Below, in pieces: positions 24,839-26,076 of a DNA stretch of 64,000 bases. The position numbers and the translations under genes are program-made. The notes below the pieces were generated by a model. The model did no database searches and was not told the origin of the DNA. It saw only the letters and a list, made by a program, of their open reading frames with translations. The stretch is taken from NCBI GenBank assembly GCA_004299485.1, contig SCQP01000001.1:1-64000 (forward strand). The letters run 5' to 3'. The stretch's first letter is position 1. The number at the start of each line of letters is the position of its first letter. The DNA comes from Acidobacteriota bacterium (GTDB lineage: Bacteria; Acidobacteriota; Terriglobia; Terriglobales; SCQP01).

Positions 24839-25360
24839 CTAGTGTACGAGTGCCCGCCACCAGTCCCGCATCCCCGGCCAAAAGCCGTGCTTCACCGGTG
24901 AACCGCCCCCCGAGGTGACAGCGGCGAGAACATCGCTCGCACGCAGCCGCTGCGCCATCGCTTCCCGCGCGAACAATTCGATGTACCCATCCGCCGCCAG
25001 GATCACCGTCGCCGGCACCGCAATGCCGCCCCGCTCGCGCCGGTTGTACAAATCCCACGCCTGCACCGTCGCCCGCGCCGGGTCACACAGCAGCGGAAAG
25101 CTCAATTCGAGATCCTGCCGCAGCTTCGCCGCTCGCGCCGGCGGATCCACCGACAGCGCCGCCAGCGGGTAACCGGCGCCCGCAAATGCCTCCGCATACC
25201 GTTGAAATGCCACCAACTGGTGGATACAAAACGGTCACCAGTAGCCCCGATAAAACAGCAGCACCAGCCCCCGCGACCCGCTCAGCGTAGCAATGCTTTG
25301 CGGCACGCCGGCGTGGTCGCTCACCTCAAGCCGTGGCGCCATTTCCCCCTTGCGGACCAT
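24839..25360 (-). CDS. Peroxiredoxin-like protein with in-frame TGA (probable selenocysteine)
   Basis: Reading from ATG 25360 gives MVRKGEMAPRLEV, then VLLFYRGYW, then a TGA codon (25235-25237), then PFCIHQLVAFQRYAEAF and on to a normal redoxin end (GIAVPATVILAADGYIELF). The AhpC/TSA-like active site is normally YRGxWCPxC, so the TGA stands exactly where the resolving or catalytic Cys belongs, giving U-x-x-C. A hairpin starts directly after the TGA (see the SECIS entry). The product would be 173 residues. TAGAAT lies 5 nt before the ATG. The alternative is a Cys-to-stop nonsense mutation, but the downstream frame shows no decay. The Sec machinery is outside the window. Confidence 0.72.
25199..25234 (-). 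promoter_or_regulatory. SECIS-like hairpin after the in-frame TGA
   Basis: The transcript just after the TGA can fold with an outer stem CCGUU/AACGG (25230-25234 with 25199-25203) and an inner stem CCACC/GGUGG (25219-25223 with 25210-25214). The apical loop is AGUU. The loop begins 16 nt after the TGA and carries G at its second position. Both fit the known bacterial SECIS rules: loop about 16-37 nt downstream and an early G in the loop. Confidence 0.6.
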
Positions 25361-25399
25361 ATGCGATTCTAACCCCTTGCGCCCGTGACCCGTACAGGT

Positions 25400-25405
25400 T
25401 ACCAT
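25400..25405 (+). promoter_or_regulatory. TANNNT -10 box abutting the antitoxin start
   Basis: TACCAT ends 6 nt before ATG 25412. The following TGAGGGCATG is identical to the bases at the hicB start (37967-37976). Confidence 0.45.
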
Positions 25406-25411
25406 GAGGGC

Positions 25412-25657
25412 ATGAAGCAGGTAGGCATTGCCGATTTCAAGGCTCATCTCAGCCAATATCTGCGCGAGGCCCGTGAGGGTGAAGCAATTACGGTCACCGA
25501 CCGCGGCACGCCGGTCGCGCGACTGGGGCCGGCGCAGGCTAACGGGATTCGCATCCGGAGCGGCAAGGGCGACTTGCGGGGGCTCCCGCTGCCGCCACCC
25601 AACGACGTCGACTTCGACGTAGTCGAAATGCTGCTCCAGGACCGCGGGCGGCGCTGA
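25412..25657 (+). CDS. Type II antitoxin, Phd/YefM (prevent-host-death) type
   Basis: The 81-residue protein has the Phd/YefM N-terminal DNA-binding fold (KQVGIADFKAHLSQYLREAR, then ITVTDRGTPVARLGP). Its C-terminal tail (PPNDVDFDVVEMLLQDRGRR) would bind the toxin. It probably neutralises the PIN-domain toxin whose ATG overlaps its TGA stop by one base, and represses its own promoter. ATG 25412 is preferred over ATG 25385 because homology starts there and the -10 box spacing fits. Confidence 0.85.
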   Translation: MKQVGIADFKAHLSQYLREAREGEAITVTDRGTPVARLGPAQANGIRIRSGKGDLRGLPLPPPNDVDFDVVEMLLQDRGRR

Positions 25658-26076
25658 TGGCGTTTCTATATCTGGATTCATCCGTCGTGTTGCGCTATGT
25701 CTACCGGCAACCAGGTTTTTTGGAGCTGGCAAAACGGAGGGAAACCGTGGTCGCCAGCCCGCTAACCGGCGTCGAGTGCTTGCGTTCCCTGGATCGCATT
25801 CGCCTGGAGCAGCCCCCGCAGCCGAGCTGGCAGACAAGGCGTGCTTTGCTCTCGCTGGTTTTGGATCACGTGCAGGAGATTGACCTCACGCGGGCGATTC
25901 TGACGCGCGCTGGCGGGCCACTGGCCGTGCCGCTGAAGGCGCTGGATGCAATTCATCTCGCCAGCGCCCTGTTCTGGCACGAGCTCCACGGCGGACTCGG
26001 ATTCGCCACTCATGACCGCGCACTCGCCCGCGCCGCCCGCCTCTACGGCCTCCAGGTCGTCGGGATCACCGACTGA
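25657..26076 (+). CDS. vapC: PIN-domain ribonuclease toxin (VapC type)
   Basis: The 139-residue PIN protein has the acidic catalytic quartet: D8 in LYLDSSVVLR, E in LTGVECLRSL, D in LKALDAIHLASAL, and D in FATHDRALARAARLYG. VapC toxins cleave tRNA or rRNA, and the target here is unknown. It is coupled to the upstream antitoxin (TGATG overlap) and converges on the ABC permease gene with a 6-bp gap. All active-site residues are present, so the pair looks functional. Confidence 0.87.
   Translation: MAFLYLDSSVVLRYVYRQPGFLELAKRRETVVASPLTGVECLRSLDRIRLEQPPQPSWQTRRALLSLVLDHVQEIDLTRAILTRAGGPLAVPLKALDAIHLASALFWHELHGGLGFATHDRALARAARLYGLQVVGITD

Follow-up and report, generated by a model that had tools for sequence, protein, structure and literature searches.

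Does the in-frame TGA in the active site of an Acidobacteriota redoxin gene end translation, or is it decoded as selenocysteine (Sec, U)? The gene lies in a stretch of 64,000 nucleotides, which was analysed as a whole and is called here the window. The initial annotation had placed the TGA at positions 25235-25237 within the motif YRGYW-U-PFC; both coordinates and motif proved right, and we add the strand (minus), which had been left unstated. Our results make it close to certain that this TGA is read as Sec by SelB and a SECIS element; the product is most likely a peroxiredoxin (Prx)-like thiol:disulfide oxidoreductase selenoprotein, probably cytoplasmic. The features concerned are listed below.

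24839..25360, minus strand: predicted selenoprotein gene of 173 codons encoding an AhpC/TSA (PF00578) redoxin; 12 homologues have the same start-to-stop architecture
25360, minus strand: ATG start; the TAG stop is at 24841-24839
25235..25237, minus strand: TGA, predicted Sec codon for residue 42, first position of U-P-F-C; TGA stands at this column in 13 of the 13 closest sequences
25226..25228, minus strand: TGT, codon 45, Cys at the second UxxC position (resolving or peroxidatic-position Cys)
25210..25223, minus strand: bacterial SECIS core hairpin CCACC-AGUU-GGUGG, its loop formed by CAG (Gln) and TTG (Leu) and beginning 16 nt after the TGA
25198..25235, minus strand: outer stem ACCGUU/AACGGU around the SECIS core, including the last TGA base; present here, not conserved in relatives
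25366..25371, minus strand: TAGAAT, a hexamer resembling a -10 box, 5 nt upstream of the ATG (by eye)

With the TGA read as Sec, the protein runs MVRKGEMAPRL...LLFYRGYW-U-PFC...ALVH and matches PF00578 (AhpC-TSA) over its whole length with 78.9 bits, against a cut-off of 26. The gene contains a single in-frame TGA, followed by 131 residues, and codon 45 specifies Cys rather than Sec, so that the product is not a UxxU protein. The claim that these 131 residues continue as a normal redoxin was borne out by tblastn, in which the post-TGA stretch matched 12 other loci at 34-55% identity.

Homologues were sought in 120 related genomes, and the 13 best sequences, namely the query and 12 homologues that are 34-55% identical, span 8 genera and 2 families of the order. 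Each of the 13 has exactly one TGA, which falls in the codon 42 column, and a frame that stays intact as far as a later stop; W-U-P and Cys45 are invariant among them. In 36 more distant homologues, which we aligned across the TGA as had been proposed, the same column is TGT or TGC; the UGA thus occupies the place of the first Cys in a CxxC motif (here U-P-F-C). No Cys version of the subfamily itself was found among the 120 related genomes, Cys forms occurring in more distant branches of the tree. Conservation downstream of the TGA equals that upstream, and dN/dS of the post-TGA part was 0.10-0.51 in the seven pairs tested, indicating purifying selection. The initial annotation had held that close relatives with a plain stop and decayed downstream sequence would speak against Sec; the relatives instead keep the TGA, an intact downstream frame and purifying selection. 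Furthermore, the same argS adjoins the gene in two same-genus genomes (G003 and G001), and the genes there are therefore orthologues by position too.

The host genome (3.3 Mb, 98.8% complete) encodes the whole machinery of Sec decoding. The search for selA, selB, selC and selD that had been called for returned all four genes, and with them the Sec-decoding trait: a tRNA-Sec (selC) with anticodon UCA (73.1 bits; gathering score 47), a 662-aa open frame for SelB (349.9 bits with its pieces summed), SelA (440.6 bits), and SelD in its Cys form (347.5 bits). The presence of the redoxin gene also goes together with that of SelB. Among the 41 nearest genomes, SelB was above cut-off in 9 of 11 gene holders and in 8 of 30 others (p = 0.002), and among those at least 95% complete in 7 of 7 gene holders and 6 of 27 others (p = 3e-4), p-values that are optimistic given the shared ancestry of the genomes. 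The two gene holders without SelB above cut-off, G001 and G004, are only 73% and 82% complete.

The initial annotation had described a nested hairpin immediately after the TGA. Its inner part, CCACC-AGUU-GGUGG, holds throughout the subfamily, where all 13 closest sequences have a stem of 5-7 bp and an AGUU loop starting exactly 16 nt after the TGA. Over the 12 distinct sequences, 92.9% of the pair cells are standard and five cells are changed on both sides, the two-sided changes falling in three stem pairs (C-G to A-U, U-A to G-C, and G-C to A-U). The covariation score was higher than in any of 500 shuffles or any of the slid controls, although the shuffle counts are not to be taken as probabilities since the sequences are related. 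The outer part, CCGUU/AACGG, is real in the window gene, but in the relatives only 38.9% of its cells pair, no better than in shuffles, and we rejected it as a feature of the family.

Codon choice points the same way. Leu49 is encoded by TTG in 13 of 13 sequences, compared with 22% (55/250) of the other Leu codons in the same genes, and by mostly CTG or CTC at the equivalent position in Cys homologues; a synonymous choice fixed in this manner supports a constraint at the RNA level. When synonymous codons were drawn at random with the amino acids fixed, only 0.5-14% of the draws for a gene gave the full hairpin with an AGU loop. The median best SECIS-type hairpin was -7.8 kcal/mol in 48 Sec homologues versus -3.8 in 36 Cys homologues.

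Taken alone, the hairpin in the window is weak evidence, because 12.7% of all TGAs in the window, which has 65% GC, precede a hairpin of SECIS geometry that is at least as stable. The upper hairpin (-6.8 kcal/mol) is the weakest of the 13, the whole 48-nt fold reaches -15.0, and a 51-nt fold at the site gave z = -1.4. The evidential weight lies in the conservation of the hairpin across the 13 sequences. An Rfam scan returned no SECIS family at gathering level and nothing relevant at a permissive level, which is unsurprising because bacterial SECIS elements vary. The outer stem may help the weak hairpin locally in this gene. According to published rules, a bacterial SECIS has a loop of 3-9 nt, a stem of 4-16 bp, a G in the first two loop positions, a spacing of 16-37 nt and an MFE of at most -7.5 (PMC13188914); in the element found here the loop has 4 nt with G as its second base, the stem has 5 bp and the spacing is 16 nt, while the MFE limit is attained only by the whole fold.

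The hairpin may also leave its mark on the protein. At residues 47 and 50, the window gene and its sister L027 have His-Val (CAC..GUG) and the other members Arg-Ala (CGC..GCG). The second bases of these two codons pair in the stem, and both states keep a central pair, A-U or G-C. Cys homologues, which are not bound by the hairpin, have, in addition, Arg-Val, Arg-Gln and Arg-Thr at these residues. Since the tree joins the two His-Val members, the change counts as one evolutionary event and is only suggestive. It is thus possible, at a little below an even chance, that the SECIS hairpin determines protein sequence in this Sec-only subfamily, with the RNA element forcing amino-acid covariation beside the active site.

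Other readings of the TGA have to be set against this evidence. A nonsense mutation of TGC or TGT to TGA in a Cys enzyme would leave an ordinary redoxin interrupted by a stop in frame, its downstream part decaying, and dN/dS values of 0.4-0.5 in some pairs are not very low. Such a pseudogene is refuted by the 12 homologues, every one of which carries the same TGA in an intact frame; downstream conservation matching that upstream, the conserved SECIS-like hairpin and the presence of the Sec machinery argue in the same direction, and we give this reading practically no chance. Nor is it at all probable that the locus makes two products, one terminated at the TGA and the other a 125-residue protein without UxxC initiated at an internal TTG (25216). 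A mechanical listing of open reading frames gives exactly this arrangement, with its internal-start frame, in agreement with the prediction that ordinary gene callers would split the gene. However, the part encoded upstream of the TGA is conserved and belongs to a single fold, W-U-P and Cys45 are invariant, and the TTG is codon 49, the Leu of the SECIS loop, whose constancy the hairpin explains. An internal start was rejected on that conservation and on the loss of the catalytic motif, as translation from this TTG would drop the whole redox motif.

If a suppressor or an altered code let Trp or Cys be inserted at the TGA instead, the frame would have to be equally intact, and the Sec machinery itself is able to insert Cys under selenium shortage. 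Yet TGA closes more long open frames in the window than any other stop (31 of 58); it is therefore a normal stop, and a genome-wide change of code was rejected. In addition, tRNA-Sec (UCA), SelA and SelB are present, and a SECIS-type hairpin together with the link to SelB is specific to Sec, which leaves insertion of another amino acid a vanishingly small likelihood. Decoding as Sec is the reading adopted in what follows.

The AlphaFold model of the protein (pLDDT 90.5) matched peroxiredoxins (BcpB, Bcp4 and AhpE) and ResA in Foldseek searches of the PDB, the best matches being peroxiredoxins. In a profile alignment, residue 42 is matched with the Thr/Ser of peroxiredoxins (AAMTPGC, AAFSPVC) and, in the CPHC variant of ResA, with the first Cys, and Cys45 falls on the peroxidatic Cys. 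The description of the protein as peroxiredoxin-like therefore holds for the fold but not for the active site, where Sec stands at the Thr/Ser position of the Prx motif, which is the nucleophile position of the thioredoxin/ResA CxxC. The PxxxT/SxxC motif of peroxiredoxins proper is not kept, with Sec at the Thr/Ser column and Arg at the Pro position (FYRGYW-U), and the site is thus of UxxC type. From these alignments, a thiol:disulfide oxidoreductase-type UxxC site appears more likely than a classical peroxidase site, with Sec42 most likely the nucleophile attacking a disulfide and Cys45 the resolving residue. A true peroxidase, in which Sec42 or Cys45 reduces peroxides, would fit the best structural matches and the alignment of Cys45 with the peroxidatic Cys of Bcp/BcpB; we consider it unlikely, though far from negligible, given the replacement of the Prx Thr/Ser by Sec and of Pro by Arg, which makes the site one of ResA/thioredoxin type.

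Built on the observed codon, hairpin, machinery and conservation, the proposed mechanism for the oxidoreductase is as follows. SelB-GTP carrying Sec-tRNA(Sec) would bind the hairpin whose AGUU loop lies 16 nt past the UGA; instead of termination, Sec would be put in at position 42. The redox centre of the folded protein would be the U-P-F-C of Sec42 and Cys45, located at the N-terminal end of the first active-site helix. Judging from the CPxC of ResA and the TxxC of Prx, with which this site aligns, the selenolate would attack a disulfide or perhaps a peroxide, after which Cys45 would resolve the intermediate as a selenenylsulfide, to be reduced by thioredoxin or a similar partner.

As the initial annotation correctly stated, Prx-like UxxC selenoproteins are already present in surveys (PMC13188914, PMC9312934, PMC1794560, PMC2398784). 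The Prx-like thiol:disulfide oxidoreductases of PF00578, with UxxC or UxxU, are a known selenoprotein family (PMC13188914 Table 1, PMC9312934, PMC1794560), and 'Prx-like 1' (pfam00578, UxxC) was found in the GOS survey (PMC2398784). That the window gene belongs to these already known UxxC redoxin selenoproteins is well supported: it shares with them the AhpC/TSA domain, the thioredoxin-type UxxC, the hairpin right after the UGA and the existence of Cys homologues elsewhere. It differs in belonging to a distinct subfamily of 13 sequences, for which the relatives searched yielded no Cys form and in which all members have the AGUU loop and 16-nt spacing. The ResA/TlpA-type thiol-disulfide oxidoreductases (PDB 3c71, the ResA CPHC variant) carry their CPxC at the corresponding point of the fold; unlike them, the window protein has Sec for the first Cys and no export signal evident at its N-terminus by inspection. 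The Bcp/BcpB/AhpE peroxiredoxins (PDB 3hjp, 5epf, 1xxu) are among the closest folds, but have the Thr/Ser of TxxC where the window protein has Sec.

SelL and SelL-related proteins (NF040769) are related redoxins, which the window protein matches weakly (36.8 bits), far below the curated cut-off of 120. SelL has UxxU, whereas the second residue here is Cys, encoded by TGT, which places the protein outside that group.

The wider interest of the gene is modest, as UxxC redoxin selenoproteins are already well known. Splitting or truncation of such genes by ordinary gene callers makes it easy, however, to overlook selenium-dependent redox enzymes in this phylum, and the subfamily, with its 16-nt spacing, AGUU loop and Sec in every member, is a clean set for studying the minimal needs of a bacterial SECIS.

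The host selenoproteome was sampled by family. Its 14 PF00578 members include one further TGA redoxin, L111 (C14:131907-132404, minus strand), with YRGYW-U-PYC, its own hairpin after the TGA and an apparent N-terminal signal region. In the host genome no formate dehydrogenase was above cut-off and no SelW-like/Rdx protein was found; a UGSC search gave no match, as did its controls. With SelD also being the Cys form, this genome may retain Sec decoding chiefly for the sake of redoxins. Within the phylum it is common to find TGA redoxins, and these belong to several paralogous groups, so the local occurrence is nothing exceptional either; a large number of additional TGA redoxins found across the phylum (L039, L084, L087, L103 and others) sort into groups whose SECIS loops differ (AGUUA/AGUUG, GGU or GGC), at spacings of 16, 20-21 or 24 nt.

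By eye, no clear Shine-Dalgarno sequence precedes the window gene or its homologues L025, L026, L027, L029 and L033, and -10-like hexamers (TAGAAT, TATACT, TACACT, TATAGT) lie 5-7 nt 5' of the start in these same genes; the selenoprotein mRNA is possibly leaderless. Just upstream, at 25385-26076 on the plus strand, a Phd/YefM antitoxin gene is paired with that of a PIN-domain toxin, the two running divergently from the selenoprotein gene, and a homologous pair is found at the equivalent place in L026.
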